From contig JAUJYN010000015.1 in NCBI GenBank assembly GCA_030737835.1, positions 2,721,685 through 2,785,684 on the forward strand: 64,000 nt of DNA, in the 5' to 3' direction. This document shows, one piece after another, positions 4,912-48,028 of the stretch. The first letter of the stretch is position 1. Each line of letters begins with the position of its first letter. The notes beneath the pieces were generated by a model that was given only the letters and a program-made list of their open reading frames with translations, was not told the DNA's origin and did no database searches. The position numbers and the translations under genes were made by a program. This stretch comes from Acorus gramineus. Its lineage: Eukaryota > Streptophyta > Magnoliopsida > Acorales > Acoraceae.

Positions 4912-6352
4912 TGTTAAACCCCGAGGCAACCGTCACCGGAGTGTTCCAATGACATCAATATCAGAGAGTCATACACAAGAGGCCAATAATGACTCCAACA
5001 AAGTACAACAGTAACCAATAAGAATCAGATGACGCAAGCAAAGCAATGATGAGCAATGGTTAACTGAAGGTGCGGAAAGGTAAACTACATATAAAAAAAG
5101 TATATAATACAAAATATCATTACAGACCGGTTACTATAATAATTGTTTTGTGAGAGCCTAGAGTCTAGTCAATAACAAAAGACAACTCATGCAATTGACG
5201 CGAATCACAATTACATACAAGAAGGAATGCTAACGGCCTCACGCTCGTAGACCCAAAAGATTGGACGCAATACACCTCACGGGAGCTCTGGCTTCACGTT
5301 CGACCCGGCCTCAACCAGAGAAACAATACGAGAGGGGGTGAGCTACAAGCTCAGTGAGTGGCACAGGTCCACGCATCATACACAATAATAAGTATCCCAT
5401 AAAACAATATAGAGTACCAACAATTAAGGGAAGCAAACCAACAATCATAAGTGTCATACAACCCCAATCTCATCATCACCTTCACCCATAGGGTGACATT
5501 GGATTATCGGAAAAAGAAAACCAAACTCGCTAACTCCCTTAACCTTCCAGTAGCCCTCTCTCGGGTAGCCCTCTTCCTGACGGCCTTCCAAGATAGGTAC
5601 AAAGCCACAAAGTTATTGAAATATACATTGGGCCTCCTATAATATGGTGGTACCATTCAGGATGGCTCCAACGCCGAGTAGCTTCAACACGGATACGAGG
5701 TAGGGGAGAAGCATATCTACACTCACAACATGATATTTATGGATCCTTTGGTTATCACTCACCAAACGATATTAAATCCAACTAAAGTTATACAATGTTG
5801 CATCTTTCAGATGCAGGAAGATTAATTAAGTTCTCACCTAATTTATGTCGTAGAATGACCCTAGAGATGGGTCACACGCATGCCTAACACACTTATTATT
5901 CAAGGTACATATACTTAATAAGCTATCATTTGGCTAAAGATTTTAAAACAATGATCATGAGTGCATAATAGATTTAACCAAACATAGATCATGGATGCAT
6001 AAGAGATTTAATCATTCAAGTAAATAAATATTCATGGTAGTGGGAATACAAGAGACAACCTAAAGCATGCTTTCTACTTATGCGTTCATGTGTGGGCAAA
6101 TGACATTACCATACTAAACACATAGGGGTATGGAAGTATGGTTATGCATACATGGGCGTGATATACAAACAAGCATGAGATCCTATACAAGCTACAATTT
6201 ATAATAATCATATTATGTAAGCTATCTAACATAGTATGAATCTAGTAAATACATATGATCTAGCCATCATAATTAAATATAGCTATGGAGCCCAAAAAAT
6301 GCTCAACGCATGATTAGGTGCACTAAGCGCTTCCCAAATGAGTGGGCGAACC
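4912..6352 (-). mobile_element. Old, diverged fragment of a Tekay-type LTR
   Basis: The segment starts TGTTAAACCCCGAGGC, which aligns with the TGTCACGCCCCAGGGC terminus of the younger LTRs in this window. It then follows their order: AATATCAG, a GTGAGAGCC block, GAGGGGTGAGCTACAAGCTCAGTGAGTGG (split here as two recognisable blocks), CACCCATAGGGTGACA, and near its right end a GCGCTTCCCAAATGAGTGGG block matching GCGCCTCCCAAACTGGGTTGG of the neighbour. It therefore reads on the minus strand and is the terminal half of an LTR that was split when the Tekay element to its right inserted. Its divergence marks it as clearly older than the other copies. Confidence 0.65.
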
Positions 6353-6880
6353 TGTCACGCCCCAGGGCGGCCGTCCCTGGGACGTGGCAAGGGTATACAT
6401 GATATCAGCAGTCAATACAAGAGATCAATAATATACCATAAACAACAGCTAAAAAGACAACACAGACAACAAAGAGGCTGACATGATGTATACACAGAAA
6501 TGCGGAAGCTAAAAAGACTGAATCTGTAAATCAACAACACTTTACAGACTCGATACATAATCATATGTCCTGTGAGAGCCAATATATCCACAATACATCC
6601 AAATACAATCCATACTAGGTGCCCAAGCACAGAAATATATACATACAATCAAAAGGAAGGATGCTGATGGCCTCAAAACTCGAGGGACGTGGCGCTACTC
6701 CGCTACTGGTGTAGTCGCTCGGGAAGCTCCTCTTTCAAGTCCGCCTCGGTAATCACTGGAGAAAATAATTATGCGAGGGGTGAGCCACACGCTCAGTGAA
6801 TAGCACAACCCATGCATACAGTTTATATTAACCACATTTAATCAAGTCACTAGCCTCAAAGTGGCATAAACAACACTAAT

Positions 6881-7130
6881 CCGGGGGTTCGTACATCGCC
6901 GAACCACCATACCCTCACCCTCACCCTCACCCCTCAATAGGTGACAAAGGATGTTGGGACTTAATAGGCTGATAATCATCCTTACACAATCTAGTGGGTC
7001 GTCGCATCGCCGACCCACCACACCCTCACCCTCACCCCTCAATAGGTGACATAGGCTCTTGGGACTGACTAGGCTGTTGGTCACCCTTGGTCGACCGATA
7101 GTCTCTCCCCACTCCGTAGGTCGTTTGGCC
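6881..7130 (-). repeat. G-rich minisatellite in LTR A1, two units
   Basis: Two units of roughly 115 bases each contain (minus strand) TATTGAGGGGTGAGGGTGAGGG, given here as a 20-base core TTGAGGGGTGAGGGTGAGGG, followed by a TGGGTCGGCGATG block. The same unit occurs once, twice or three times in sister LTRs, so this is a variable-number repeat internal to the LTR. The spaced G-runs could fold as a G-quadruplex. Confidence 0.7.
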
Positions 7131-7850
7131 ACTCCCACATTCGGCACAGTCCATCTACCAAATCAGGAGGTGCATACTGATGGGAGCCCCTGCACGGGAC
7201 GATCTTTCTAACGCTGAGATAGTCTCTACACGGATCCAACGAAGGGAACAGAACAGCCTATCCATCGCATATGATCCACTCGGATCCGCTGACAGCACAT
7301 CTCTACTACTCTAATGTCTTGAATTCTTCAGAATTCCACCAGCGCGCATAACCAAGATGCGGGGAGTACATAAGATAATAATAATGAGGAAAAGAGATCT
7401 TGGGAGGGCAACCTGAGGTCCCGATGTAGGACATCCCGCCAACCAAACAAGGAACACGGAGTACCCTAACCCGGGTCTCAATGTTAACCTCGCAAGGCCC
7501 CCTTATATTCCCCAACGAATGCTAACAATATCACAAGCTTGCATTTAATTAAATAAATCAAACTAATAGGACGCATGCATAGGTCGGGGCTTTCCTAGCA
7601 TGATAACGAGGTGACAGGATGCACGGCTCATGCACATATCCTAAGGGTGCAAGTCCCTAACATACAAGTCTAGGGTGGCATGCATTCTATACATAAATCA
7701 TGCTTGCATGGATTACAATAAAACAGTTAATATTAACTATGTGCCCTAGGGGAGGACGGTACACGCCCAAGTGCATGTAGCGCCTCCCAAACTGGGTTGG
7801 GTTGTCCCACTCACCGGAAGTCGGGTCGTCGCGTGACCGTCCGTCAAGAT

Positions 7851-8723
7851 CTGCAAGACAGGGTATCAACTTGGTGAGTAAAATCCACAAATACCACAAA
7901 ATACACAAAAACATACAAATAAACACCCAACACTCGGGCAAACGTGCATACGGCCCGTACACACGCTAGCCCGAGCACCCCGACTCACTCCCGCACCCCC
8001 GGCAACCACCCGCACGGCCACCCGCCCCCGGATGCACCGCCGCGCCTCAGCCCGCGCACCCAGGCGCACCGCCGGGCCCCTGCCCGCCGCCTGGACACGC
8101 CGCCGAGCCTCCCGGGTGCACCGCGCGCCCACTGCGCCCCATCGCAGCAGCCCGCGCGCACACCGCACGCCCCGCGCTGGCCCGCGCGCACACCACACGC
8201 CCCGCGCGCCCAGCGCCTCGCCCCGCGCGCACCCCGCGCCCACCACCGGCTCGCCCAGCGCTCCACCAACTCGCCGTGCGCGCACAGCGCGCCTGCGCCC
8301 CTGCGCAGCGCTCCGCGCGCACCCCGCACGACGCCCTGCTCGCATGCCTACTCGACTAGCACCCAGCACGCCCAGTACGCCCAGCGCCCAGCACGCCCAG
8401 CGCCCGCACGTCCAGCACCCGCACGTTCAGCACGCCCAGTACGCGCGCCCTGCTGGCCTCCAGCTCCACCCGAGCGCACGCCCGCGCGCACGCACGCGCG
8501 CGCCCTGCCAGCTGCTCCGCCTGCTACGCCAGTGCTGCCTGTGCTGCTGCCTGTGCTGCTGCCCTGCCCGAGACAGCAACCCACCCTGTCCGAGCACCTC
8601 CACCACCAACCACCGGCCACCCATGGCCTCCGACCGCCCCCAACCACCTCCGACAGCCACCAACACCCAAACCCACCCTCCTAACAAGCATCTAAACAAG
8701 AAAAGCAAGGAAGGAGAGCTTAC
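7851..8723 (-). other. Apparent GT-AG intron inside LTR A1
   Basis: On the minus strand the donor reads GGTAAGC and the acceptor CTTGCAG followed by ATCTTGACGG. A TTACTCACC block lies about 25 bases before the acceptor, as in sister copies. Most of the interior is an alternating CG/GC/TG island. The call rests on conservation of both borders in at least seven other LTR copies and on one copy that lacks precisely the homologous segment. Confidence 0.65.
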
Positions 8724-9477
8724 CCAAAGGAAAAAGAGGAAAGGAAGGGAACCGGAAGCTCCTTTTGCACCGAAATGCTTCCCCAAAGGTCTCTACCACC
8801 AAGACCTATTCCCACCTCCGAAATGGCTCGGATCTGAGGAAAAGAGAGGGCGGAAGAAAGGGCTAGACACACCGGAATCCGTATTTGAAATCACCGGGGT
8901 GTAGATCGGGACCGGATCTACCCTTTCTATGTTTTAGGTTTTAAGGTTTGGGCACTCCAAGGGGCTCAAATCTAAGAAAAGGAGAGAGGGGGAGAGAGAA
9001 AACACAAAGAGGAAGATGATGAATAGTGAAGAGCACCTTTTTAGCTCACTTTAAATAAGTCAAACAAGGTTTAATTAGGGTTTAACCAAGATTAATTAGG
9101 TTAAGGGTGCTTAAAAGGGGGATTTGACTTGGGTCAACCCAACCACACAAAAAAACAAAAAGGGTTGACCAAGTCATGGGCCCACTTTGACCGAGTCAAC
9201 TCTCCCAATGACTTCTCGCTCGGTCAAAACCCGGATACGCCCCGGAACTGTGAAATTTCAGAAACGTTACCGGAATTTGATGAAATTTTTGTGAGTGGCT
9301 TAGAATGGCACCAGGACACATAATATGCAGTTAGATTTTCAATTGGAGTCCTCAAGCTCAGGACGATAGCTAACAGTCCAAAATTTTGCGGTTCCGATCG
9401 AAAAACGAAAAAAAACTCAAAAACTGCCAAAATGCTCCAATGGTTACCAGCAGGCAAAAAGTGACACATATATAACA

Positions 9478-9492: not shown

Positions 9493-10483
9493 GAAATTTT
9501 GTCCTCAAAATAAATACAAGAACATCTAAGAAGGGAAAAGATGCGGATACGCGTCACGCATGGCGTCCTCAAGCTCCCAAGTGGCCTCGGCACCGGAACG
9601 GTGCTGCCATCGCACCTTGACCAGCTAGACGGTCTTGGTGCGGAGCCTCTTCTCGCGGCGGTCCAGGATCTCAATCGGCTGCTCAACGAAAGACAAGTCC
9701 GGCTCGAAGACGAGCGGCTCGAACGGGATGATGTGAGCAGGATCGTGGACATATCGCCTCAGCTGCGAGACATGGAAGATGTCATGAGCCTGAGCCAACT
9801 GTGGGGGCAGAGCTATGCGATAGGCCACCTCTCCAACTCGCTCGAGGATGAGGAACAGCCCAATGAAACGCGGACTCAGCTTGCCCCGCACACCAAATCG
9901 GAAGATGCCCTTCATCGGGGACACCTTCAAGAACACATGGTCACCAACCTCGAAGGTGAGCTCACGGCGACGACGGTCGGCGTAGCACTTCTGACAACTC
10001 TGAGCGACTCGGATACGCTCGCGAATCGTCTTCACCATCTCTGAGGTCTGGTGAACGATCTTTGGTCCCTCTAACTGGCGTTCTCCGACCTCGTCCCAAC
10101 ATAGGGGGGACCTGCAGCTGTGGCCATAAAGTGCCTCGTAAGGAGCCATCCGGATGCTCGAGTGGTAGCTGTTGTTGTAGGCAAACTCCACCAACGGAAG
10201 GTGCCTCTCCCAACTGCCCCCAAAATCGAGAACACAGGCCCGCAGCATGTCCTCAAGAGTCTGGATCGTCCTCTCTGACTGGCCGTCCGTCTGCGGATGA
10301 AACACTGTACTGAAATGGAGGTTCGTACCAAGGGCGTGCTGGAGGCTACGCCAGAACCTCGAAGTAAAACGCGCGTCTCGATCAGAAATGATGCTGACTG
10401 GAGTGCCATGGAGACGGACAATCTCGGAGACAAATAACTGCGCCAGGGTGTCCAGAGAATCGGTGAGTCGGATGGGGAGGATG
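9493..10483 (-). pseudogene. Tekay integrase core end and chromodomain-type tail
   Basis: The minus strand encodes the end of a Ty3/gypsy polyprotein. Visible blocks include VSIISDRDARF, the conserved FHPQTDGQSERTIQTLEDML, the LPLVEFAYNNSYHSSI block, YEALYGHSCRSPLCWDEVGE, and the C-terminal GDHVFLKVSPMKG and RGKLSPRFIGLF blocks. These are diagnostic of Tekay/Del chromoviruses, whose integrase inserts cDNA and carries a C-terminal chromodomain. A VRWQH-like chromodomain tail is recognisable towards 9500-9680. Only the 3' part of pol is present; the fossil is broken and lacks gag, protease and RT. It adjoins the polypurine tract and 3' LTR to its left. Confidence 0.85.
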
Positions 10484-12596
10484 TCACAAAGAGAAGAGAA
10501 GGAGAAGGTGCAAGTGCAAGTCTAGGTTTGTGTAGGTGTTGTTGTTGTTGTTGATCTCCTCTCTCTCAAGCACCTTTTCATGAACTTCCCCCCCCCCATG
10601 ATTTTCAGCCAAGAAGGAGGCTGAGGAGGGCTGTGGAGGTGGTGGTAGTGGTGGTGGTGGTTGAGGTGGTCGCGGGTGCATCGAGGGCCCCCGAGTCTCC
10701 CCCTTTCATTCCCCCTCCCAAGGTGAGCTCTTCCCCTTCTTTTCTTGGTTTTTCATGGCTTAAAGGGTTGTTGCGAGGTCATGCATGCTAGATGATTGGT
10801 TTAGGGTGAGTGAGAAGTGTGGAGGAGGGGTTAAAAGGGGTTAGGGAAGGCTGGGCGCGCGCAGGGGGCTGTCTGCGCTCGTGCGCGCGCAGGCGCGCTC
10901 ACAGGAGGGCGCAAGCAGGCGCAGGCCGGCGCGCAGATGTGCGCGGGAGCGTGCGCGCGAGCACGCGGGTGCGCGCAGATTGGGCGCGCGAGGAGTGCGC
11001 GAGAGCGTGCGCGCGCGCGGGGCATGCGTCCGGGCATGCGCTTGGGCGCGCGGCTGGGGGGCCAGTGCTCATGCGCGTGCGTGCGTGCATGTGCTGGGGC
11101 ATGCGCGGGGCTGCCCAGGGGCTCGGGTAGGTGCTGGGGCACCCGGGCATGCGTGCGTACGCGCGTGCTCGCATGCGTACGAGCCCGTATGCGTGCATGT
11201 CTGAGTCTTTGGTATTTCTAATGATTTCTAAGTGTAAATTGTGATGTTACCCAATGATTGTGCATATGGTTCATGCACATAGCTAAGATTAAATTCTCCT
11301 CAAATATATGCGCATGTTAAAAACTGAGGGGCCTATATGGAATAGGCGTGGGTATGACCCGCTGTCGGGTTGTACCTTGTTAGTTAGAGCGCTAGCGATA
11401 AAATCGCCCGTGCATCCGAGCGATGCCCTCGTTTGGAATTTAGGAGGATTCATTATCTTAATGATTTGTTAAGCCGGTAGTTGGGGCGTGTCACCCCCTT
11501 TGTGTCTGAGCGACGCAACGGTGTGGGAGTACAGTAGTATTCGATATCTCGATAAGTGATTATCGAGAGTAGTTGTTTTCCATTGGGTTCGCTTTGCGAA
11601 CATGGAATGTTTACTCCCAATGTCGTCCGTGTTGAGGGGGGCCGGGTTGTAGCTGTCCTGACAGAGGGCTCCCATCCGTAGGTACCACCGATGCATTCGG
11701 AAGCGTACTAATCGTGGGAGTATACCAGGTAGAGGCTACGTGGGGAAAGGGCTACCGGTGGACCAAGGGTGTAGAGCAGTCTAAGTCTCTTCCAAAACAA
11801 CTATGTCACCTCTAGGGGGTGAGGTTGAGGATGAGGTGAAGACACATCGCCGCGTGACCCATTCGTTGTTCGTCCGTTCCCATAGTTGTTGGGTCCGGTT
11901 GTGTATCGATGTTTAAAGACATCGTGGGTCAGTTATCCCGATGTAGATGATCCAGTAGTGTTGTGTAGACCAGTAATCCCGGGTCTCCTCGACCAACGGT
12001 ATGGTCTCTCCCCAAAAAGTCCCAAGAGTCTCCCTCCGGGAGTGAGGGTGAGGGTGAGGTTGGTCGCGCTGCCGCGTGACCCTGTTATCCATGGGTTTCC
12101 ACCCATGTTTTCCTTGAAAGGAAAGTGCTTATGTATTGAATTGTTGTATGGTGATTGGTTTCTAGCCACTCACTGAGCTTGTAGCTCACCCCTCGCATAC
12201 TGTTTCTTTTCAGGGGCAGTGTTGGGCGTGGAGCTGGAGCTTTCCTGTGGCGTGGTCTTATGGGCGTGGAGCGTTCTTCCGGCGGATGGCGAGTGCGAGG
12301 CTGTCAACAGTCCTAGAGTCATTATATGTATTGTAAATCGTGCATGTGGCACAGGTTGTATTTTCTTTGGTCTAGACTTGGCTCTCACAGGACAATGATT
12401 GTGTATTCGAGTCTGTAATAATGTTTTTGATTTACAGACATTGTTTATATATTATGCTTCCGTTTTTCAGTCAGTTATCATTATCCTTGCTTTGCCACCT
12501 TGTGTGTTGTTGTTGGAGTCTTTATTGACCTCAGGTATTGATAGCTGATATTTTATTATTGCCACGTCTCGGGGACGGCCGCCCTGGGGCGTGACA
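10484..12596 (+). mobile_element. Partial long LTR (copy C0), plus strand
   Basis: The sequence matches the second half of the C-type LTRs seen at 31750 and 40403. It has the GTTGTTGTTG leader, a GTGAGC donor-like site at 10723 followed by a CpG-rich island (about 10850-11190), the TTGGGGCGTG block, the G-rich GGGAGTGAGGGTGAGGGTG repeat, the CACTCACTGAGCTTGTAGC block and the terminus GGGGCGTGACA at 12596. Only part of the LTR is present. It directly follows Tekay integrase sequence on its left and E-element DNA on its right (flank AGATG). Confidence 0.75.
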
Positions 12597-12856
12597 AGAT
12601 GTAAGTGTGATGGGTGATAAAGAAAGTATGTAGGCACATGATAGAGATGGTCATGGTGGGCTAAAGGGACGAGTAAATACGTGATTCATATGAAGGAGTC
12701 CTGTAGCAAGGGAGGCTAATTTTCCTTTAGGATCATATATTTCATGCTTTTATTTTTTTTTGGTATGCGAGCATGGTTTAGAAAGAAAACTTTGCTTAGA
12801 TTCAGGATTCTTACTTCTCGGATGCCTCTTTTGCTTGGACTAACCCCTTTCTTTCA
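12597..12856. other. E-element leader before the antisense ORF
   Basis: This short non-coding stretch lies between the end of LTR C0 and the first recognisable plant-mobile-domain exon. It is AT-rich and T-rich towards the right (TTTATTTTTTTTTGG) and probably belongs to the promoter or 5' leader of the antisense ORF. No clear TATA box was assigned. Confidence 0.4.
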
Positions 12857-15165
12857 TTGTTTCAGTGGCCGAACCGCATTCGAGCTCTATGGCATGGGAC
12901 GAAGAGGTGGTACTCCGCCTTGGGGCAGGGGGAGAGGGACCTGGTGGACGGAGCGGGCTTCCGCTCCTTCTTCTTGATCGAGCCCTTCCACGTTCATCAC
13001 CCGTACCTTGAGGCGTTGGCGGAGCGGTGGGACCTGGAGAGCTGCACATTTATCCTCCCCACTGGTGCAATGATGTCGATGCTCGAGGATGTTGAGCGGA
13101 TTACGGGCCTCCCAGCCTTGGGCGATGCGGTGATAGAGGCTACCAGTCCAGACTACAAGGCGCTCTTTTGGGAGTTGATCAGGGATTGGGAGTACGTGGA
13201 GCGGGAGAGGACATTGAACCGGATCCCTCTTGGACAGCTATCGAGGCAGTATGGCCTCGGTTCATTCACGCGCCGTTAGAAGGGTGAGGCTGCGGCCAGT
13301 TTTGAGAGGAGGAGGCTGATGATCGAGGCCAGGGAGGCTGCTGCATGCCCACAGAGGGCACGGAGGGAACTGAGGGCGTTCTTCCTCTATTTCTTCGTCC
13401 GGGTCATCTTCTCGACGGCCTCCGACAAGGTCTCCTCCCACTTCTTGTTGCTGATGGGGGACTTGGCGATGATGGGCCGCTTCGCTTGGGGCGCGGCCAT
13501 GCTGGCTCATCTCTTCGTGGAGTTGTCGAAGAAGGTGAAGAGGGCCGGAGGCAAGAACCTTGGCGTTTTCGCATCATTTCTGCAGGTATAGTTAGCAAAA
13601 AATAGAAATGATTTGATCTCTGTTTATTCATTTCCCCTGACTTTGGTTTCGGCTTTCTTTCTGCAGATTTTTGGGTATGAGCACTTCGCCATTGCTCATC
13701 TGACCCAGATGGTCTTTGACTGTGCCCTTCCTTGGGCCATGAGATGGGCGCCTCTAGGGGCTTCGCGCCTGCGTCGCCTCGTACAATTTCGGGAGGCCTT
13801 TCAGGTTTTGAGAGAAGAAGAGGTATATATTTTTATCTTTTCCGCTTTTATCAAGTTTTCTTTAAATTAAGCTCTCTTCCTTATTCCTTGGTATCTCTTG
13901 TTGCAGATGACATGGAGGCCCTAAACCGAGGAGGAAGTCCCCGAGAGGCTGTCGAGGGATATCTGGCTAATCTTCTTCAATGAGGTCATCTATCATGCGA
14001 TCAGCCGGGTGGTCCGCCAGCTTGGGTACCACCAGTGGGTGCCCAAGGCTCTGCCGAAGCGTCCTTCGATTCCAGTGGCCCGCATTCCTCGGGATACGAA
14101 CCTCCTGAGGAATTATTACGTGTACTTGCATGGATGGGTTGAGAGGGGGACTTTGGTCGAGTGGCGCCCCGACGTAACATTGAACGACGACTACCTGGCT
14201 TGGTATCGTCTAGAGTATGTGAGCATTCTTGGGACCATGGAGGAGGAGATCCCGGACCCTTATGTGAGTATATTTGCCGTTCCTTCCTTTTCCTTTTCTT
14301 TCCTCTCTTAAGTGTTTTTGATATATATATTTATTTTGTAGTTTGAAATGAACGAGCTGGAAAAGAAGCTAGAAACAACCAACCAACATCTCTTGAAGAG
14401 AACCGATCAGGTGGAACGCTTGAAGATCTAGAGGCGTCACTTGCAGGAGCAGGTACAGGTCCTTGAGGTTTAGGTGGAGGCGTTGGCAAGGGCGAGGGCG
14501 AGGGCCGATGGTGCCTCCTCTTCATCTGCTCCTCCTCTGTCCATGGTTTCTGAGAGAGAGCTCGAGCTAGTGAGGGAGCTGGATGTGGCCCGGAGAGAGT
14601 TGATGGCCACAAGGATGGAGCTTGATTAGGCGAGAGAGATGGCTGCACGAGCTGAGGAGGAGATGAGCCGGCTAAGGTTTGAGAGGGTGTCGAGAGAGGA
14701 GAAGTTCGTCCTCTTGCGCTGTGAGCGAGACTCTCTCCAAGCAAGGGTGTCAGAGTTGGAGGCATCGGTGGGTGTCCCCGGGGGTTTGATGGGAGATCTG
14801 CTCTGCTCCCTTCAAGTGGCTAAAGATAGGGACCGGGATTTGCTTCGGTTGAGTGAGGAGAGACTCCAGGCTGCAGAGGCGAGGGCACAGGAGCTTGAGG
14901 AGCGGTTGAGGGTGGTCGAGGATCGATCGAGGAGGATGGAGGGTCGTCTCCGCCAGAGGTTGAAGAGGAAGGATAGGGAGCTTTAGCAGATCAACCTCTA
15001 GAGGGCTACTATGAGGGGGAAGCTGGTTGGAGGAGGTTCCATGACTGAGGCGGACCTCGACCTTCTTCCTCTTGAGCCCTACCACTCGGTCTCTGCCTCC
15101 CTAGCCACCGGAGCTACCTTCAGTCAATCTTCTCACCCATCAGATACTCAGAGTCGTGGGATATA
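12857..15165 (+). pseudogene. Antisense plant-mobile-domain (PMD) ORF of element E, main part
   Basis: The plus strand encodes a protein with a PMD-like N-terminal region: WDLESCTFILPTGAMMSML, LEDVERITGLPALGD, then LSRQYGLGSF. After two short introns comes a block containing YHQWVPKALPKRPS and WVERGTLVEW, and finally a long Arg/Glu/Leu-rich coiled coil (about 14342-14990). GT-AG introns are visible at about 13586-13666, 13823-13906 and 14264-14341. PMD proteins occur as host silencing factors (MAIN/MAIL1) and as cargo of plant transposons. Here its position after the integrase of E and its opposite strand argue for a Tat antisense ORF. The frame is broken, with several breaks. An LTR nest inserted in its last large exon splits it from the part at 25350. 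Confidence 0.7.
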
Positions 15166-15945
15166 TGTTATGCCTGTGTCATTTGGAGCCATTTCAGTTA
15201 AGCCTTGGTCATATCTGGGTCATTCAGGGCGTTTTTCTTTTTCGATCGGAGTCGCTAAAATTTTGGCTTTTAGCCACCTACGGGAGTTGGAGTACTTTGA
15301 TTGAAAATCTAACTGCATATTATGGGTCCTAGTACTGTTTAATACTACCCATAAAAATTTCATCGAATTCTGATAATGTTTTGAAAAATATGCAGTTCCG
15401 AACCGTATCCGGGTTTTGAGAGATCCTGGTTGGCCGAATAGTGTGAGATATTTTGAGGATATGGTGACCTTTGGTAACCTTACCCCCACCTTGCTTAGTG
15501 ATGAAAAACCCATGGCCTTTTGATATGTGAGTGGGTGAGCCTAACCCTAACCTCACCACCCCCTTATGGTCACCCCTAGACACTATTTGGGCATGAAAAA
15601 GACATTTTTGCCCTCTCTCTCTCTACCCCTCTCTCCCATTTTGTGGAAGACTTTCTCTCCCTCTCTTGGTCTCTTTTTTTCCCCCTCTTTGTGTGTGGAG
15701 AAGGAGGAGGAAGAAGCAAATGAAGGAGAAGGTGAAGAAGGAAGCACAAGAAGGTGTTTGTGCAAGTAGTTGTTGTTGTTGTTGTTGATTCTCTTCTCTC
15801 AAGCTCCCTTTTATGCCCTTCTTTTCCTCTGTTTTTCAGCCAAGAAGGGCTGGTGGAGAGGCTGAAGAGGAGGTGTTGTGGTGGTGGTGGTTGAGGTGGT
15901 CGTGGGTGCGTCGAGAGCCCCGCATCTCCCTCTTTCCCTTCCCCT

Positions 15946-15957
15946 CTTTTGATCTCG
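15946..15957 (+). other. Exon-exon-like junction where sister LTRs have an intron
   Basis: C1 reads CTTTTG joined to ATCTCGTCGG. The sister copy at 31750 has the same two flanks separated by 510 bases that start GTAAGT and end TTGCAG. Sequence on both sides of the junction is nearly identical between the copies for over 30 bases upstream and over 100 downstream. An exact loss at both predicted splice sites is best explained by copying from spliced RNA. A chance deletion at the same two bases is the alternative. Confidence 0.7.
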
Positions 15958-17183
15958 TCGGATGGGATGCGCGAGGTCCCGGGTTGCGGTGAATGGTTTG
16001 ATCCAATCCCCCCCCTGAGATGCGCTCGACGCGCGTAGTCGTGCGTCGCGCATCGATGGGGCACCCTAGCTATACTACTTGTGTAGATAAGTAGTATGGC
16101 CATGCTTAAACTATAATATGTTAGATATCTTGCATGCTAGGCTTATATTGCATGTATTGTATCCATGTATGAATGACTGTATCACATGCGCCCCTCTAGT
16201 ATGGGCATGTATTCTGTAATGTGTATGGATGTATAGAATATGGCATGCCTTAGGTAGTATTGTAATACTACTCTCACCATATTAATTGGAATATCCAGCA
16301 TGATTAAGTCTGGGTTAATAATGGGCACCTGCCTAATATTCCCTTGCGATAAGACTCGAGGGCGTGGTGTAGTTGTTGCACCCATGCTAATGTGGCAAAG
16401 CTATGACCAACTTCAAGAGATGGTGATCTGTCTCTCGCTCTCTCCATCTACACGAACTGAGTAAGTAGAGGTGATTTCCTACTCGACTCGGGTTCGTTTG
16501 GAATATTGGCATGCACCTGTTAGTGCACGAGATCGCGCTTGACCCTTCCCTTTTAAGTTGGTGATATCCAACGCATGCTTAAGTAATGGCCATGTATGCA
16601 TGTTGTATGATTTGTTGTTTATGATGTAAATATATGTTAGGGAGTATCTGTATAATTATTTGATAGGTTATCGTGCATATAGTCCATGTACATAACTAAG
16701 ATATAATTCTCCTGGATATATATGTGCATGTTAAAACTGCTTAGGCCTATCTGAAATAGGCGTGGGTATGTGTTATGCCTGTGTCATTTGGAGCCATTTC
16801 GGTTAAGTCTTGGTCACATCTGGGTCATTCAGAGCCTTTTTCTTTTTCGATCGGAGTCGCTAAAATTTTGGGTTTTAGCCACCTGCGGGAGTTGGAGTAC
16901 TCTGATTGGAAATCTAACTGTGTTATATATGTGTCACTTTTAACCTGCTGGTAACCGTTGGAGCGTTCTGGCAGTTTTTCATTTTTTTTCGGTTTTCGAT
17001 CGGTACCGCTAATTTTTGGACTGTTAGCTATCGTCCTGAGTTAGAGGACTCCGATTGGAAATCTAACTGCATATTTGGTGTCCTGGTGCCATTTTAAGCC
17101 TCTCACGAAAATTTCGTTGAATTCCGGTAACGTTTCTGAAATTTCACAGTTCCGGGGCGTATCCGGGTATTTTAAGTCGCTCG

Positions 17184-17192
17184 CTATATAAG
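17184..17192 (+). promoter_or_regulatory. TATA box of LTR B1
   Basis: CTATATAAG stands about 35 bases upstream of CACTATTCATCATC, a leader block shared by the A and B copies, which is consistent with a transcription start near that block. Confidence 0.6.
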
Positions 17193-17509
17193 TGGAAGCT
17201 AAAAAGTGCCTGGCACTATTCATCATCTCCTTCCTTGAGCCCTCTCTCTCCTCTCCTCCGTTTTTCTTCCATTTGAGGCCCTTAGACCCCTCAAACCTTA
17301 AAAGTTAAAACCTAGGAAGTGTAGATCGGGTCCCGATCTACACCCCGGTGGTTTCAAATCTCAATTCCGGCAAGTTTTGGCCGTCCGTCCGCCCTCTCTT
17401 CGTCCCTGATTTGAGCCATCTTGACGGTGGAGGTAGATCCGGGCGTTGGAAACCTTTTGGGAGAGGTTTCGGTGCGTGGAGAGCAACCGGATTTCCTTTC
17501 CTCCCCTTG

Positions 17510-18715
17510 GTAAGCCTCTTTTTCCTCTCTTTCTTGCTTAGATGTATGCTAGGAGGGTGGAAATGGGGTTGGGTGGAGGTTGGCGGCGGTGGGTGGCCGT
17601 CGGAGGGCTGTGGGAGGTGGTCGGAGGCTGTGGTGGTGGTCGGAGGTGGGTGGTAGAGGAGCTCGGGCTGGCAGGCTTGCAGCTCGGGCTGGCGGGCTGC
17701 TGTCTCGGGCAGGGCAGCAGCGCAGGGTGGTGCAGGCGCAGTGGCTGGCACAGGCGCGCGTGCGCGCGTGCGCGCGTGCGTGCGCTCGGGCGGTGTCGGG
17801 GGCCAGCAGGGCTGGGCGTGCGGGCGCTCGGCTGGCACTGGAGGCCAGCAGGGCTGGGCGTGCGCGCTGGGCAGGCTGGCAGGGTTAGCTCGGGTAGGCT
17901 GGGAGCAGGTGCACCAGTTTGCTGGGCGCGCGAGCGCGTGCGTGCGGGTGCGCGCGCGGGCGTGCGCTCGGGGGGTGCAGAGGGAGGTGTGCGGTGCAGG
18001 CTGGCTGCGGGCAGTGGCTGTGCGCACTGGCAGGCCGGGCTGGCAGGCACAGGCAGCACAGGCGCAGCAGCTGGCAGGGGTGCGCGCGCGTGCGCGAGGG
18101 CGTGCGCGCGGGTGGAGCTGGGCGCTGGCGGGCGCAGTCGGGCGCGCAGTCGCGCGCGGGTTCTGGCGCGAGCGGGGGTGTGCGCGGGAGTGCGCGCGGG
18201 TGCGCGCGGGCGTGCGCGCGAGCGTGCGCGCGCGCGGGCAGGGCGCCTGGGCACTGTGCCTGGGTGCTGGGCAGGGCGCCTGGGCATGCGCCTGGGCGCG
18301 GTGCTGGGAACCAGTGCGTGCGGTGCTGGGGCGTGCGTGCAGTGCGCGCAGGGGCGCGCTGGGCTGGGCGCGCGGTGCGCGCGGGCGCGCGCGAGCGTGC
18401 GCGTGCGTGCGGCGGTGCGTTGGGGCGCACGGGCAGGCACGCGGCAGTGCGCCGCTGGTGTCCGGGTGTGCGGGCTGAGTTCGGCAGGGCGCCTTGGCGC
18501 GCGGGCCGGGGCTCGGCTGTGCGCCCGAGGCGGGTGGCCGTGCGTGCGGTTGCCCGGTGGGTTCGGGAGTGAGCCGGAGTGCTCGGGCTAGCGTGCGTAC
18601 GTGCCGTATGTACGTTTGCCCGAGTATGGGGTATTTTTGGAGTATGTTTAATGTATTTTTGGGTATTTTGGGGTAATTGTTTATTTTACTCACCGTATAA
18701 ATGCCTGTCTTGCAG
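17510..18715 (+). other. Apparent GT-AG intron inside LTR B1
   Basis: The donor is CTTGGTAAGC and the acceptor TCTTGCAG before ATCTTGACGG, with TTACTCACC about 30 bases upstream of the acceptor. The interior from about 17690 to 18590 is an almost uninterrupted CG/GC/TG-alternating island. A minus-strand open frame of about 500 codons through it is a composition artefact rich in Pro, Ala and Arg. Confidence 0.65.
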
Positions 18716-19499
18716 ATCTTGACGGACGGTCGCGCGACGACCCGGACTTCGGTGAGTGGGACAATCCAACCCAGTAGAGAGGTGTTATACGCACTTGGGC
18801 GTATACCGACCTCTCCTGGGGCACCATGGATAGATATTGGCATGTGTAATATGTATATCATGCGAGCATGATTAAAATTGTAGAATGCATGTTACCCTAG
18901 ACTTTGCATGTTAGGGACTTGCACCCTTAGGATATGTGTATGAGCCATGCAGCATGTCCCCTGGTTCCATGTTAGGAAGCCCGACCGATGCATGTGCCCT
19001 ACTAGTTTATTTATTAAATTAAATACTAGTATTTGTTAAAATTGCATGTTATAGTGAATATTATAGGGGAGGGGCCTTGCGAGGACAGCGGTGAGACCCG
19101 GGTTAGAGTACACCGTGTTCCTTGTTTGGTTGTCGGGGTGTCCTATAACGGGAACTCACGCTGCCCTCCCGAGTTTCTTTCCCCAACGATATTCCACCCT
19201 GTTATAACCTTATGCATGTTCCCCGCATCGTAGTTATGCGCCCTGGTGGGTTCTGAGGAATTCAGAGCATTAGTGTTGTTATGATGTGTTGTCTGCGGAT
19301 CCGAGTGGATCATATGCGATGGATAGGCTGTTCTGTTCCCTTCGTTGGATCCGTGTAGAGACTACCTCAGCGTTAGACAGGTTGTCCCGTGCAGGGGCTC
19401 CCAGTAGTAGGTGCCTCCTGATTTGGTAGAAGGACTGTGCTGAACATGGGAGTGGCCAAACGACCTACGGAGTGAGGAGAGACTATCGGTGGACCAAGG

Positions 19500-19760
19500 G
19501 TGACCAACAGCCTAGTCAGTCCCAAGAGCCTAGGTCACCTGTTGAGGGTGAGGGTGAGGGTATGGTGGGCCGGCGATGTGGCGACCCACTGGATTGTAAG
19601 TCCCAAAATCCTATGTCACCCATTGAAGGGTGAGGGTGAGGGTGTGGCGGGTTGGCGGAAGCGACCCGCTGATTTTGTGTAGTTAGTCCCAATATCCTTG
19701 GTCACCCATTGAGTGGTGAGGGTGAGGGTGTAGTGGGTTGGCGGTAGCGACCCACTAGGT
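19500..19760 (+). repeat. G-rich minisatellite in LTR B1, three units
   Basis: Three consecutive units of about 90 to 100 bases share a CCCAA-G/T-A-CCT-GGTCACC start, a GAGGGTGAGGGTGAGGG core and a GGCGG-AGCGACCC-CT end. Sister LTRs have one or two units, so the array expands and contracts between copies. Confidence 0.75.
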
Positions 19761-21897
19761 TGCGGAATTGTTGTTATTTGTGGCTATGGTAATGAGGTTG
19801 TGGATTATAAAGACTATCTGGTTGTGGTCAATATTGTCTGTGATGCATGGGTTGTGCCGTTCACTGAGCGTGTGGCTCACCCCTCGCACAATATTTTTCT
19901 TCAGTGTCATCTGAGTCGGATCTGGAGGAGGAGCTCCCCGAGGGACTTCATCAGTAGCGGAGTAGCGCCACGTCCCGCGAGTTTCTGAGACTATCAGCAT
20001 CCCTTGTGCCAGTATGTATTATTTTTCGTGCTTGGGCACGCGTTTGGTTGTATTTGGATGTCTTTGTATGTAATTGGCTCTCACAGGACATGTGATTATG
20101 TATGGAGTCTGTAGTGTGTTTTGATTACAGATTCAGTCATTAGTTATCCGCATTTGGTGTATATATCATGTCAGCCCTGCTTTTGTTGTCTGTGTGTCAT
20201 TCTGGTTGCTCGTGTATGATATATTATTGACCTCCTGTGTAGATTCTGATATTTTATATACACTTGCCGCGTCTCGGGGACGCCCGGGGCGTGACAAACT
20301 GCATATTATGGGTCCTGGTACTGTTTCGTACTACCCATAAAAATTTTATCGAATTCTGGTAACATTTTGAAAAATATGCAGTTTTGAACCGTATCCGGGT
20401 TTTGAGAGTTCCTGGTTGGTCGAATAGTGTGAGATATTTTGGGGATGTGGTGACCCTTGGTAACCTTACCCCCACCTTGCTTGGGGATGAAGAAACCATT
20501 GGTTATTTGATATGTGAGTGGGTGAGCCTAACCCTAACCTCACCCCCCCCTTAAGGTCACCCCTAGGCACTATTTGGGCATGAAAATGACTTTTTTGCCC
20601 TCTCTCTCTCTCCCCCCTCTCTCCCATTTCGTGGAACACCTTCTCTCCCTCTCTTGGTCTCTTTTTTTCTCCTCTTTGTGTGTGAAGAAGGAGGAGGAAG
20701 AAGCAATTGAAGGAAAAGATGAAGAAGAAGCACAAGAAAGAGTGAGAAAGGGTGAGTATGTGTTGTTGTTGTTGTTGTTGTTTCTCTTCTCTCATGCCCC
20801 TTTGCACCCCTATTTTCTGCCATGAAGGGATTGAGGAGATGCTGATGAGGTGGTGGTAGTGGTGGTGGTGGTTGAGGTGGTCGTGGGTGTGTCGAGAACC
20901 CCGCATCTCCCCATTTCCCCCCCTGTTTTGGTAAGGCAGCACTCTGTATTTCAAAGATCTCAGTGCATCTAGTACTTAAAGACACAGTTTTAGGATTATG
21001 TCTTACTATGATATGATCATCTATGTGTCTAGTTGTTATATATGAAATTTGGGATCATTATGATATCTGTGGTGTAAGTTAGAACCAGTTTTGCATGGCC
21101 TGTCCAGATTCGCGTAGGAATTGACCTGCTTCTGGAAATAATTTGTTTTGGGCTTGTAGAGGCAAAATTAGGTTCTATTGTCTTCATGGATTGTGATCCC
21201 AGCATATCATAGGATGTGCATGATTTATTTCATAATTTTTGGAAGTGTATTGGGTGCTGTGGAGACCATTGCGATAAGACTCGAGGGCATGGTGTAGTTG
21301 TTGCGCCCATGCTAATGGGGCAAAGCTATGACCAACTTCATGAGATGATGATCTCTCTCGCCCTCTCCCTCTGCACGAACTGAGTAAGTAGATGCGATTT
21401 CCTACTCGACTCAGGTTCGTTTGGAATATTGGCATGCACCTGTTAGTGCGCGAGATCGCGCTTGACCCTTTCTTTTAAGTTGATGATATCCAACGCATGC
21501 TTAAGTTATGCCTTATGTGCTTATATGATTAATGGCCACGTATGCATGTTTAAGTGGGCCATACCCTGTATGAATGTTGTATGATTTGTTGTTTATGATG
21601 TAAATCCATGTTAGGGGTCACCCTTATGGTCAATTATTAGATGATTGTGCATATGGTTCATGCACATAGCTAGATATAATTCTCCTGGATATATTTATAT
21701 GCGCATGTTAAAAACTGATAGGCCTATCTGAAATAGGCGTGGGTATGACCCGCTGTTGGGTTGTACCTTATTAGTTAGAGCGCTAGCGATGTAATCTCCT
21801 TGTGCATCCGAGCGATGCACTCGTTTGGAATTCAGGAGAATTCATTATCTTATCGGTTTTGTTAAGCCGGTAGTTGGGGCATTAAGCTAGGCCTACC

Positions 21898-24366
21898 TGT
21901 TATATATGTGTCACTTTTAGCCTTTTGATCACCTTTGGGATATTTCTGACAGTTTTCTAATTTTTCTTTTTTTCGATCGGAATCGCTAAAATTTTGGACT
22001 TTTAGCTATCTTCATGAGCTCGAGAACTCCGATTGAAAATCTAACTGCACATTATGAGTCCTGGTGCCATTTCGAGCCACTCACAAAAATTTCATCGAAA
22101 TCCGATAACGTTTTAGAATTTGGCAGTTCTGAATCGTATCCGGGTTTTGACCGAGTTGGAATGTCAAAGGGGGGACTTGACCAAGTCAAGAAGACTTGGA
22201 CCAAGTCAAATTTGACCATTGACTTGGTCAAATAGTTTTGTTTTTTTGTGTGGTTGGGTTGACTCAAAGTCAATCCCCACCAACCCTAATTGTTCCTTAA
22301 GTGTGTGAGTGTGTGTGTGTGTGTGTGGCCCTATTAGTGGGCGTCCCCTTCTTCTTCCCCATCTCTATCTCCCTCTCACACACTCCACCACTCACTCCCT
22401 CTTCTTGTTGTTCCAAATAGAAGTAGTAGAAGAAGAAGAAGAAGAAAACCCTAGAAAGGAAAAAGAAAGGTAAGTGTGTGATCTACCTTTGTATGGTGTT
22501 TGATTTGTTTTCCCTTTTCTCTATCTCCCTGTCATGGCTTCCCACACCCCTGTTTTCAGCCATTTCGAGGGCTTGAGAGTCGCTGAGGAGGTGGTGGTGT
22601 TGGTGGTGGCGAAAGAGGTGGTTTGGTGCGCAAAGGGCACCCGAGTTTTCCCCCCCTTGTTCTTCCTCTCCTTGGGTAAGTCCTCCTCCTCCCTGAGCTT
22701 TGTTTAGATGATTGTTAGGGTTTATAAGTGGTCAAGCATGCCTTGCATGGGTGGTAGGGGGTGTGGGAGAGCTGAGGAGGGGGTGGGAAGGGTTCGGGCG
22801 CACGCGCGTGGCAGCACGTCTGGGAGCGCGGGCAGGGGCGCGGCAGTGCGCTCGGGGTGCTGGGGTGCATGCGTGCTTGCGCATTTGTGCGTGCGCGTGC
22901 GGGAGGCCATGCGTGTGGCTGCCCGAGGGTTCGGGTGGGTGTCGGGGCACTCGGACTCGCGTGCGTACGTGCGTGCTTGCATGCGTGCGAGTCCGTATGC
23001 ATGCTTTGTCCGAGTATTTGGCTATTTCTAGTAAATTTCGTGTGTATTTGTGTAGTTTACTCACCATATTGAATGCCCATGTCTTGCAGATCTTGGCGAA
23101 CGGTCACGCAATGACCCGGGTTTCGGTGAGTGGGTCAATCCAACCCAGTAGGGAGGCGTTCGATGCACATAGGCGTGCATTGCCCTCCCCTGGGGCACCA
23201 TAATTGTATATTAACTTGTGCTAAATGAAAAACTGTGTAATGCATGTTTTAATATGATGTAACAATGCCACATTAGACCTTGTATGCTAGGGATATGCAT
23301 CCATATATCATGTATAGAGGCCCATACATGCCTAGACACCATGTCCCATGATTGGAAAGCCCCGATCTATGCATGTTTCCCATTTAGTTTAATTTAATTA
23401 AATCAAAATGAGAACATATTGTTATAAGCATGCCTTAGAGAATATTATAACCTTGTTGTTATAATATATGTTTCCCCGCATCTTAGTTATGCGCCCTGGA
23501 GGAATTCTTGAGAATTCATGACATTAGTAGTGTTAGAAATCGTTGTCGACGGATCCAAGAGGATCGTATCCGTGTGGGTAGGCTGTTTTCTCCACTTCGT
23601 TGGATCCGAGTAGGGACTCCCCGACGTTGGAATGCTGTCCTGACACAGGGCTCTCATCTGTAGGTACCTCCGATGCGTTGGACAGTGCTGATCGTGGGAG
23701 TATACCAGGTAGAGGCTACGGAGTGTGGGAGAGGCTACCGGTGGACCAAGGGTGGAGAGCAGTCTAGTCTGTCCCAAAAGGCCCATGTCACCCCTTAAAG
23801 GGTGAGGGTGAGGGTGGGGTGGGTCGGCGATGTTACGACCCACTAGCTTGTGTAGTTACTCCCGTTTAGGGACTATGATTATTTTAAGGTTAATATGAGT
23901 TGTGTTGCATAGATTGTGCCATTCACTGAGCGTGTGGCTCACCCCTCGCATATTCTTTTCCTCCAGTTATATCTGAGTCAGATCTGAAGGAGGAGCTCCC
24001 TGAGGCATCACAGCAGTAGCGGAGCAGCGTCACGTTTTGGGTTCTGCGAGTGAGAGGCCATCAGCATCCCCTTCTTGCTTGTATGTATTGTTATCCGTGC
24101 TTGGGCACAACACTTGTATTTGGATGTCATTGTTTATATTGGCTCTCACAGGACAGTTGATTATGTATTCGGGTCTGTAATATGTCTTTGAATTACAGAC
24201 TCAGTCGTTTAAGCTTCTGCTATATGTATATATATTATGTCAGCTACATTATTGATTGTGTTATCATTTTCGATGTTGTTTAGAGTATTTTATTGATCTC
24301 CTGTATAGACTGCTGATATTATATATATTTGCCACGTATCGGGGACGGCCGCCCTGGGGCGTGACA
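21898..24366 (+). mobile_element. 5' LTR (copy D) of a Tekay-type element
   Basis: The LTR begins TGTTATATATGTGTCAC after the flank CTACC and ends GGGGCGTGACA. It is about 2.5 kb, shorter than B1 mainly because its intron island is short. It has a (GT)n run near 22303-22328, GTAAGT-like donor and CTTGCAG acceptor sites, and one minisatellite unit (near 23770-23845). A tRNA-primer site follows at once, so this is a true 5' LTR and not a solo LTR. Only the LTR and a short leader survive. It inserted in C2. Confidence 0.85.
22676..23089 (+). other. Apparent GT-AG intron inside LTR D
   Basis: The donor is TTGGGTAAGT and the acceptor TCTTGCAG before ATCTTGGCG, with TTACTCACC upstream. The CpG-rich island is only about 200 bases (22790-22995), the shortest of the Tekay-type copies. 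Confidence 0.6.
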
Positions 24367-27826: not shown

Positions 27827-30774
27827 TGTCACGCCCCAGGGCGGCCATCCCCGGGACGCGGCAAGTGTATACATGATATCAGCAGTCTATACAGGAGATC
27901 AATAATATACTCTAAACAACAACTAAAATGACAACACAGACGAAAGCAAGGCTGACATGATATATACACAGATAGCGGAAGCTAAAAGACTGAGTCTGTA
28001 ATTCAAAAACATACTACAGACTCGATACATAATCAACTGTCCTGTGAGAGCCAATATACACACATACATCCAAATAATATACAAACGAGTGCCCAAGCAC
28101 GGAAATATAATACATACAATCAAAGAAAGGATGCTGATGGCCTCTAACACTCGCGGGACGTGGCGCTGCTCCGCTACTGATGAAGTCTCTCGGGGAGCTC
28201 CTCCTTCAAGACCGACTCAGTAATAACTGGAGAAAAATTATGTGAGGGGTGAGCCACACGCTTAGTGAATAGCACAACCCATGCATCACAATTTATATTA
28301 ACCACAAATAATCATTAAAAGCCTCAAAGTGGCAGGAACTACACAAATCCAGTGGGTCGCTACATCGCCGACCCACCACACCCTCACCCTCACCCCTCAA
28401 TATGGTGACATAGGATATTGGGACTGACTAGGCTGTTAATCACCCTTGGTCCACCGATAGTCTCTCCTCCACTCCGTAGGCCGCTTGGCCACTCCCACAT
28501 TCAGCACAGTCCGAATCCAAAATCAGGAGGTACCTACTGATGGGAGCCCTCTCATGGGACGGCCTTTCTAACGCTGGGGCAGTCTCTACACGGATCCAAC
28601 GAAGGGTACAGAAACAGCCTATCCATACGCATATGATCCACTCGGATTCGTCGACAACGCATCTCAACAACTCTAATGTCATGAATTCTTCAGAATTCCT
28701 CCAGGGCGCATAACCAAGATGCGGGGAACATATATAATATTATTGGGAAAAGAAACCTTGGGAGGGCACCATGAGGTCCCGATATAGGACATCCCGACAA
28801 CCAAACAAGGAACACGGAGTACCCTAGCCCGGGTCTCAATGTTGACCTCGCAAGGCCCCTTAATATTCCCTAAGGCATGCTAAAATACCATAAGTTCACA
28901 TTTAATTTAATAAATTAAACTAATAGGACGCATGCATAGGTCGAGGCTTTCCTAGCATGATAACAAGGTGACAGGATGCATGGCTGTTACACATATCCTA
29001 AGGGTGCAAGTCCCTAACATACAAGATCTAGGGTGCATGCATACTACATAACAATCATGTTTGCATGGATTACATATTACACAAGTTAATATTAAACCAT
29101 GGTGCCCCAGGGGAGGACGGTACACGCCCAAGTGCATATAACGCCTCCCTACTGGGTTGGGTTGTCCCACTCACCGATAACCGGGTCATCGCGCGACCGT
29201 CCGTCAAGATCTGCAAGACAGGGTAATCAACTCGGTGAGTAAAATACACAAATATATACAAAAATACACTAAAATACCCAACACTCGGACAAGCGTACAT
29301 ACGGCCTGTACGCACGCAAGTCCAAGCACCCCGACTCACTCCTGAACCCCCCGGCAGCCGTACGCACGGCCACCCGACCCAGGCGCACAGCCGCGCCCCA
29401 GCCTGCGCTCCCAGACGCACTGCCGAGCCCCTGCCCACATGCCCGGACACGCTGCCGAGCCCCCCGGGTGCACCGCGCGTTCACTGCGCCCCAGCGCAGC
29501 AACCCGCGCGCACACCCGCACGCCCTGCGCCCCAGCGCCTCACCCCGCGCGCACCACCGGCTCGCCTCACCGCGCGCACACAGCACGCCTGCGCCTCAGC
29601 GCAGCGCTCCGCGCGCACGCCCCCGCACGGCGCCCTGCGCGCAGCATCCGCACGCGGCCCCCTGCGCGCGGCACGCACTGCGCCCCGCGCGCACTTCCCC
29701 GCACGGCGCCCAGCGTGCATTACCCGCACGCTCCTGCTCCACCCGCGCGCACGCCCGCGCGCACGCGCCCGTGCCCTGCCAGCCTGCCTGACAGTGCCCT
29801 GCCAGCTTGCCCGACAACGCCCTGCCCTGCGCCTGCCAGCCCGCCTGCCCTGCCAGCCTATCCGAGCTAACCAAACACCCCAACCACCACCCACAGCCAC
29901 CGACAGCCACCAAAACCACCATGGAAACCATACATACCCAAAAACACCTCCTAATCAAGCATCTAAACAAGAAAGGAAGGAAAGGAAACCTCACCCAAGG
30001 AAGGAAAGGAAGGAAGGGAAGATCGGGTGCTCTTCGCGCACCGAAACACCACCTCAAGGACCACCACCACCAAGATCTCCTATAGCCCTCGAAATGGCTG
30101 AAATCAGAGGAGAAAAGGGGGCATGAGAGGGGGTCACACTTGAGGGAACTCGAATCCGAGACCACCGGAAGATAGATCGGGAGCTCACCTATCTTTTCTC
30201 TTCTTAGGGTTTTTGGTTTCAAGCACCCTAGCTAGGTCTAAATGGGGAATAAAGAGAGGGAGAGAGAGAGAGAGAAATTTGGAGAAGATGATGAATAGTG
30301 GGGGATATGTTGTCGTGGGATTTATTTATCCTCACACACACACCACACACTCTCACACCCTCAATTAGTGAAAAAAAGATTAGGTTAAGCTAGGATTAGG
30401 GAGGTTTAAGTGCACTTTGACTTGGGTCAACCCATCCACACTAGAAAACAAAGGGGGTTGACCAAGTCATGGGCCCACATTTGACCAAGTCAAGTCTCCC
30501 AATGACTTCTCGCTCGGTCAAAACCCGGATACGCTTCAGAACTGCGAAATTCTGAAACGTTACCGGAATTCGATGAAATTTTCGTGAGTGGCTTGAAATG
30601 GCACCAGGACACATAATATGCAGTTAGATTTTCAATCGGAGTCCTCAAACTCAGGATGATAGCTAACAGTCCAAAATTTTAGCGGTTCCGATCGAAAAAT
30701 GAAAAAAACCAAAAAACTGTCAGAATGCCCCAATGGTTACCAAAAAGAAAAAGTGACACATATATAACAACAAT
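27822..30774 (-). mobile_element. Tekay-type solo LTR A2, target duplication ACAAT
   Basis: The LTR proper is 27827-30769, about 2.9 kb, minus strand. It has TGTTATATATGTGTCAC at its start (right), CGTGACA at its end (left) and a perfect ACAAT duplication. It matches A1 closely through its length and has the same apparent intron (29211-29994) and one minisatellite unit (about 28350-28445). Runs of CA and GA lie near 30260-30360. It inserted in the spacer of element E. Confidence 0.9.
29211..29994 (-). other. Apparent GT-AG intron inside LTR A2
   Basis: On the minus strand the donor is GGGTGAGG and the acceptor CTTGCAG before ATCTTGACGG, with TTACTCACC about 25 bases upstream. The interior holds a CpG-rich island (about 29340-29850). 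Confidence 0.6.
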
Positions 30775-35080: not shown

Positions 35081-35636
35081 ATCTCGTAGACCGGACGCGC
35101 GGCGATCCGGGTATCGGTGAGTGGTTCGATCCAATCCCCCCCCTCGGATGCGCTCAACGCGCGTAGTCGTGCGTCGCGCATCGATGGGCCCCCCCTAGCT
35201 ATACTACTTGTGTAGATAAGTAGTATGGCCATGCTTAAGCTATAATATGTAGATATCTTGCATGCTAGGCTTATATACATGTATTGTATTCATGTATGAA
35301 TGATTGTGTTGCATGAGCCCCTCTAGTATGGGCATGTATTTTTGGTAATGTGTATGGATGTATAGAATATGGCATGCCTTAGGTAGTATTGTAATAATAC
35401 TCCCACCATATTAATTGGAATATCCAGCATGAATAAGTCTGGGTTAATAACGGGCACCTACCTAATATTCCCTTGCGATAAGACTCGAGGGCGTGGTGTA
35501 GTTGTTGCGCCCATGCTAATGGGCAAAGCTATGACCAGCTTCATGAGATGATGATCTCTCCCGCCCTCTCCCTCATGAACGAACTGAGTAAGTAGATGCG
35601 ATTTCCTACTCGACTCAGGCTCATTTGGAATATTGG

Positions 35637-48025: not shown

Positions 48026-48028
48026 ATG

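Follow-up and report, generated by a model that had tools for sequence, protein, structure and literature searches.

Can the LTR of a plant retroelement hold a complete spliceosomal intron, donor and acceptor alike? The question is raised by the 64,000 nucleotides of Acorus gramineus DNA analysed here (the window), in which a first-pass annotation had picked out eight stretches with shared GT-AG borders, whose coordinates proved correct to the base. The window is made up of nested plant LTR elements, and two related LTR families concern the predicted intron (Table 1). Family A is represented by five copies (A1-A5) with the ends TGTTATATATG...GGGGCGTGACA, and family B, the LTR of which begins TGTTATGCCTG, by copies B1-B5 and a fragment, B6. 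These are recognizable as LTRs by their TG...GTGACA ends, by the TSDs of three solo LTRs (A2, A4 and A5), by the PBS-like sequence that follows A3 (presumably a fit to tRNA-Met) and by the purine tract that precedes A1. The annotation had placed the intron wholly within the LTR, and this holds for all six LTRs that can be read end to end (A1-A5 and B5): in the A copies the intron starts at LTR position 590-779 and 1,277-1,581 LTR bases remain after its end, and in B5 it occupies LTR positions 759-1194 of about 3,642. The region 35637-42251 is densely packed with partial copies, both inverted and direct, of B-type LTRs (their 3′ part), including a 1,214-nt inverted repeat with arms that are 93% complementary (39193-40406 and 40590-41803).

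Table 1. Positions in the window of the LTR copies, their introns and associated features.
Feature	Position	Strand	Remarks
A1 LTR	6351-9477	-	3′ LTR; purine tract AAGGGGGGGAGAA precedes; cut two bases past the LTR end
A1 intron	7851-8723	-	873 nt
A1 element, integrase C-terminal part and chromodomain-like tail	9514-10521	-	has stop codon
A2 solo LTR	16921-20296	+	TGTTATATATG...GGGGCGTGACA; 5-bp TSD AACTG
A2 intron	17510-18715	+	1206 nt, GC 0.73; GTAAG...TTGCAG
A2 branch-point candidate TTACTCACC	18686-18694	+	CTCAC fits YTNAY
A2 segment, acceptor to second donor-like motif	18716-18751	+	36 nt; small covarying hairpin (suggestive only)
A3 LTR	21898-24366	+	5′ LTR; PBS-like AGTTGGTATCAGAGC follows
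A3 intron	22676-23089	+	414 nt
A3 exon 1 stretch with mini-intron candidate (rejected)	22416-22675
A4 solo LTR	27827-30769	-	TSD ATTGT
A4 intron	29211-29994	-	784 nt; donor GTGAGG
A4 exon 1 stretch with mini-intron candidate (rejected)	29995-30254
A5 solo LTR	56396-59480	+	TSD AATTT; cut one base past the LTR end
A5 intron	57155-58001	+	847 nt
B1 LTR, intron-less	15166-16770	+	interrupted at 16770; exon junction 15951/15952, 1-nt ambiguity
B2 LTR	16771-16920 and 20297-21897		split by A2 insertion
B2 AT-rich intron	20931-21265	+	shares 90% identity with the B4 intron; acceptor deleted
B3 LTR	31752-33644
B3 intron	32532-33041	+	510 nt, GC 0.62; reference for the single large gap of B1
B4 LTR	33645-35636
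B4 AT-rich intron, unrelated to main type	34571-35080	+	510 nt, GC 0.37; same junction
B5 LTR	40403-44044	-	read end to end
B5 intron	42851-43286	-	436 nt
B5 exon 1 stretch with mini-intron candidate (rejected)	43287-43546
B6 fragment	~10526-11253
B6 intron, 3′-incomplete	10723-11253	+	donor GTGAGC; acceptor lost

The elements that carry these LTRs appear to be chromovirus-like. The coding sequence adjacent to A1, which lies upstream of its LTR on the same strand, is an integrase fragment only, with a match to SH3_Tf2-1 (E 1.6e-24), and a 32-aa piece after the stop codon behind it has a Pfam Chromo match that falls below the cut-off (E 0.0013). The 'Tekay-type' label given to these families by the annotation is plausible; this evidence, together with the PBS-like sequence after A3, points only towards the chromovirus level. 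Other Ty3/gypsy coding sequence, broken into several frames, is present on the minus strand at 44422-49099 and 59591-63316, and comprises RT, RNase H, integrase, an extra RNase H-like domain (RVT_3), a weak protease match and gag. An open frame at 12800-13276 has a match to the plant mobile domain (PF10536, E 2e-10), a domain reported in 57% of Ogre elements in the portion available of that study (PMC6317226). Within the window there are no Rfam matches at the gathering threshold, and an exact pattern scan of viral contigs for related copies gave no match.

As the annotation had described, the donor of the eight listed copies reads G^GTAAG in seven cases and G^GTGAGG in one (29211-29994; the caret marks the border), the acceptor CAG^ATCT(T/C)G is present in all eight, and the TTACTCACC block is missing only in 34571-35080. 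The block starts 30-33 bases ahead of the intron end in the seven copies carrying it, and the CTCAC inside it, which fits YTNAY, starts 27-30 nt before the intron end in all seven complete main-type introns. YTNAY is the branch-point consensus, usually placed about 20-40 nt before the acceptor; TTACTCACC is a good branch-point candidate as far as motif and spacing can tell. In B4 the alternative branch-point-like match is TTAAT at -31, YTNAY being a loose motif.

A search of the window with 150-base exon flanks recovered 11 exon 1 ends and nine exon 2 starts, corresponding to eight copies with both borders and the intron, two with the donor only (B2 and B6) and one, B1, in which the two flanks are present but the intron is not; these last three are additional to the eight originally listed. 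When the donors of B2 (at 20931) and B6 (at 10723) are included, G^GTRAG is found in 10/10 donors. More specifically, donor columns -1 to +5 read G, G, T, A/G, A, G and five of the six are invariant in all ten copies, against one of 44 columns elsewhere between -20 and +30 (hypergeometric 1.7e-5, a figure that ignores both the relatedness of the copies and the dependence between columns). The borders thus agree with the U2-type GT-AG consensus in the extended GT donor and in the AG acceptor, with CAG in 8/8 copies and the acceptor lost in B2 and B6.

Some of the broader expectations have to be narrowed. The borders are better conserved than exon 1 and the intron, but towards exon 2 they pass into sequence that is itself conserved and that they do not surpass, a point against the intron reading. 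The flanking LTR sequence aligns overall, although not uniformly: between A1 and A5 identity is 72% in the 400 bases upstream and 93% in the 600 bases downstream, with the intron itself (81%) in between. The interiors do vary widely in that two unrelated types exist, but seven of the listed copies, together with B6, form one homologous GC-rich set, with significant pairwise matches in most, not all, pairs.

Plant introns are normally U-rich, and in this respect the evidence is mixed. The eight complete introns are T-rich at their ends (37-48% T in the first 60 nt and 38-47% in the last 60, compared with 25-30% in the flanks), but over their whole length the T content of the GC-rich introns is not above that of the flanks, which counts against the intron reading. 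The GC content of the seven complete main-type introns and of B6 is 0.59-0.73, and such high values may lead to weaker or regulated splicing. The interiors at 7851-8723, 17510-18715, 29211-29994 and 57155-58001 contain CpG-rich, minisatellite-like GCGCGC tracts, with CpG observed/expected ratios of 1.05-1.11; the LTR around them has ratios of 0.59-0.98.

The intron-less copy B1 bears directly on the nature of these inserts. In a global alignment, B1 (15166-16598) and B3 (31752-33645) are 94.7% identical over 1,382 bases, and the single large gap is one of 510 bases at G^GTAAG...GCAG^, placed with an ambiguity of 1 nt, the next largest gap being 7 bases. Alignment with B5 gives a 436-base gap at the same place, and other gaps elsewhere of up to 73 bases. 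Ultrafast bootstrap values of 81 (exon 1) and 89 (exon 2) place B1 together with B3 and B5, and the introns of B3 and B5 are homologous to each other and to those of B6 and A3, both outside this group (the position of B6 just outside the remaining B copies has a bootstrap of only 57). Since B1 lies inside an intron-bearing group and homologous introns are carried by B6 and A3 outside it, its empty state is derived.

This derived state is also what makes it very unlikely that the 'intron' is a MITE or introner-like insertion and B1 its empty, pre-insertion site. Empty and filled sites with sharp borders do both exist, as such an insertion would leave them, and B2 and B4 carry an unrelated insert at the same place; however, B6 and A3, outside the group of B1, hold inserts like those of B3 and B5, the borders lack a target-site duplication and share only 1 nt, and two unrelated GTAAG...CAG inserts on one base are difficult to account for unless splicing is involved. 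For an ordinary DNA deletion with both ends on the motifs by accident, the probability is smaller still. Deletions are common in these nested LTRs, as the gaps of up to 73 bases between B1 and B5 illustrate, but here both gap ends fall exactly on the splice borders with 1 nt of microhomology, in a pair of copies free of any other gap above 7 nt. The chance that a random gap of at least 70 nt in the B1-B3 segment would do so is about 1.2e-6 for the pre-named pair of borders, and 2.6e-4 for any GTRAG...YAG pair.

Judged from its alignment, then, the loss in B1 looks like the footprint expected from reverse transcription of spliced LTR RNA, a loss that rests on a single event, B1 being the one intron-less copy in the window. 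It would parallel, in nature, the experiment with an artificial intron in a yeast Ty element, as described in the accessible part of the report (PMC12786077). In barley, DNA copies of spliced BARE RNA were not amplifiable, according to the portion available of that work (PMC3735527), and B1 looks like such a copy.

A second kind of change is found in B2 and B4. Their introns are AT-rich (37% GC) and mutually 90% identical, and both keep GTAAG, with B4 also keeping ACAG at the junction. When the AT-rich intron was compared with all other introns in the window by BLAST at E 0.001, no match was obtained, and within the window it is matched only in B2 and B4. Local alignment of intron ends gives the AT-rich intron a maximal z of 2.1 (with A1, first 120 bases) and values of -0.3 and 0.6 against B3; the comparison score for the last 120 bases of A3 against B3 is 33, and comparison of the first 120 intron bases is of limited use across families A and B, with some main-type pairs likewise near zero. 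Relative to B3, exon 1 is 85.6% (B4) and 86.4% (B2) identical over 118 aligned bases, and exon 2 of B4 is 90.6% identical over 244 bases. The comparisons indicate that one lineage, that of B2 and B4, is a case in which the whole intron was replaced, retaining only the splice signals.

The start of exon 2 bears on how the replacement came about. At the first 36 positions B4 matches B3 at 25/36 (plus a 1-nt gap), compared with 37/37 for B1 and 35/37 for B5, and beyond them at 225/243. Because B4 is unusually divergent in these 36 bases, the simplest account is a cassette exchange, in which template switching or recombination within the conserved exons would have brought in the intron of a related family absent from the window, one that had drifted beyond recognition. 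The intron and the short segment would then be one import ending near CGGTGAGTGG. We consider this somewhat better than an even bet; a donor family was not found within the window, and the same short segment varies among the A copies (27-33 of 35-36 positions matching), so that its divergence in B4 may be ordinary.

A fresh gain is a less probable route, in which a B1-like lineage would have acquired the AT-rich intron at its empty junction; a host intron could, for instance, have been reverse-spliced into LTR RNA that was then reverse transcribed. The exactly intron-less state that this presupposes is known in family B (B1), and the swapped intron is plant-like in composition (GC 0.37) with precise borders; to our knowledge, however, intron gains by such routes have rarely been demonstrated. 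It is correspondingly doubtful that a single lineage lost its LTR intron by retrotransposition of spliced RNA and, before spreading, took up an unrelated intron at that junction, possibly through reverse splicing. If it did, the LTR would be a natural recorder of the RNA used in replication, spliced or unspliced, and of intron birth.

The claim of a selected GT-AG intron is supported by conserved borders combined with interior turnover and by a branch-point-like block at the right distance, and it also fits the exact, derived loss in B1 and the unrelated GTAAG...CAG replacement at the same junction. We therefore favor, with a probability of roughly 90%, the reading that a genuine leader intron of the U2 spliceosomal type is present in the LTRs of these two related, chromovirus-like families, together with the following scheme of spliced and unspliced RNA. 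Transcription would probably start about 290 bases upstream of the donor, upstream of a CT-rich leader. About 325-335 bases ahead of the donor lie TATATAAG in A2 and, at about 330 bases, TATTTAAA in A1 and A5, and the other copies show no clear TATA box there. A TATA pattern near the expected place was found only in A2 among the 11 copies, with a match in B4 at -433, which weighs against the scheme. In the nascent RNA the intron would lie close to the 5′ end, to be removed from a share of the transcripts by the host spliceosome. The spliced share may serve translation, and the unspliced RNA is probably the usual template for reverse transcription, since an intron is retained in ten of the 11 copies whose donor junction can be read, the remaining one showing an exact loss; most new LTRs would keep the intron because the unspliced RNA is the usual template. 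Occasionally spliced RNA would be copied, and because strong-stop DNA (the first cDNA) has the 5′ end of the RNA as its template, the resulting LTR would be without the intron; B1 would be such a copy. The lineage of B2 and B4 acquired an unrelated intron in place of the original at this junction and left at least two copies. As to function, the intron could improve export and translation or, alternatively, binding of U1 could suppress polyadenylation in the 5′ LTR, as in foamy virus.

Three other candidate features were rejected. The reverse of TTACTCACC is the donor-like GGTGAGTAA, but the gap of B1 follows the sense GT-AG (CT-AC on the other strand), and the sense reading is therefore kept over an antisense intron. 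An upstream mini-intron in exon 1 (GTRAG ... TTTCAG^CC, about 80-90 nt) is unsupported as a conserved feature: GTRAG is present in 5/11 copies (A3, A4, B2, B4 and B5), accompanied by CAG in only 3/11 (A3, A4 and B5), and B1 keeps the stretch. Depletion of ATG is not decisive as evidence for a leader, being mild in exon 1 of six LTRs (six observed against 11.3 expected) and present in the promoter part as well (23 against 40.6).

The start of exon 2 contains a further candidate signal. At 35-37 bases past the acceptor, the near-invariant CGGTGAGTGG is found in 9/9 copies (in B1 as CGGTGAATGG, with one base changed). It is a second strong donor-like motif, reading CG^GTGAGTGG (in A2 at 18751-18759), and by its sequence would define an exon of about 36 nt and a second leader intron. 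The translated RNA may undergo a second splicing step that joins this donor to a site past the PBS. Doubly spliced RNA of that kind would be unfit as a template, but B1 suggests that RNA from which only the first intron has been removed could serve as one. The LTR part after the second donor has 33-66 ATGs per copy in the six LTRs, about the chance expectation. Just before the second donor, the 36-nt segment can form a hairpin of five pairs (GGTCG/CGACC type) with a CGCG-rich loop. In it 88.9% of cells are paired (7/500 shuffles reach this value, and slid controls at most 57.8%) and three of the five pairs changed on both sides (68/500 shuffles reach this), statistics that come from nine related sequences and a structure drawn from those same sequences; the hairpin is suggestive only.

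Splicing of plant retroelements has been described for Ogre, BARE1, EVADE, CRR and Bagy2, in no case inside an LTR in the portions available of these reports, and among the titles and abstract openings of the matches listed from the open-licence literature (subscription journals being mostly outside it) none concerned an intron contained in an LTR. In Ogre (Ty3/gypsy, Tat lineage), a spliceosomal intron is spliced out of some transcripts only, according to the accessible text (PMC6317226). The present LTRs share with it a spliceosomal intron in a plant Ty3/gypsy element, but the Ogre intron lies between the gag-pro and rt-rh-int ORFs, where splicing permits translation of the whole polyprotein, whereas here it lies inside the LTR. 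In the Ty1/copia elements BARE1 and EVADE/ATCOPIA93, splicing separates the RNA for translation from the genomic RNA, with the intron in or near gag rather than in the LTR, as far as the available portions go (PMC3735527, PMC12786077). For Diaspora, a soybean Athila-type element, five splice donors in the LTR are given in the excerpt available, as predictions only, and two predicted acceptors flank the gag-pol start codon (PMC1142308). Foamy virus, in the part of the source at hand, is alike in having its major splice donor within the LTR, upstream of the polyadenylation signal, and polyadenylation in the 5′ LTR is suppressed when U1 binds at this donor (PMC3694450). The LTRs of the window differ from it in holding both donor and acceptor. 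Foamy virus acceptors lie outside the LTR, and HIV-2 and SIV splice within the leader, the latter a point on which our literature search gave no confirmation.

Within the scope of one genome window, with one intron-less copy and one swapped lineage of two copies, the arrangement has several implications. Annotation pipelines may split or misdate such LTRs owing to their fast-evolving interior. The swap at one junction would be a rare intron replacement in a multicopy element, of which intermediates may still exist. An intron within the LTR would be copied into both LTRs of each insertion, so that genomic copies would record whether the replicated RNA was spliced, and the division of retroelement RNA between translation and replication would become countable from genome sequence alone.
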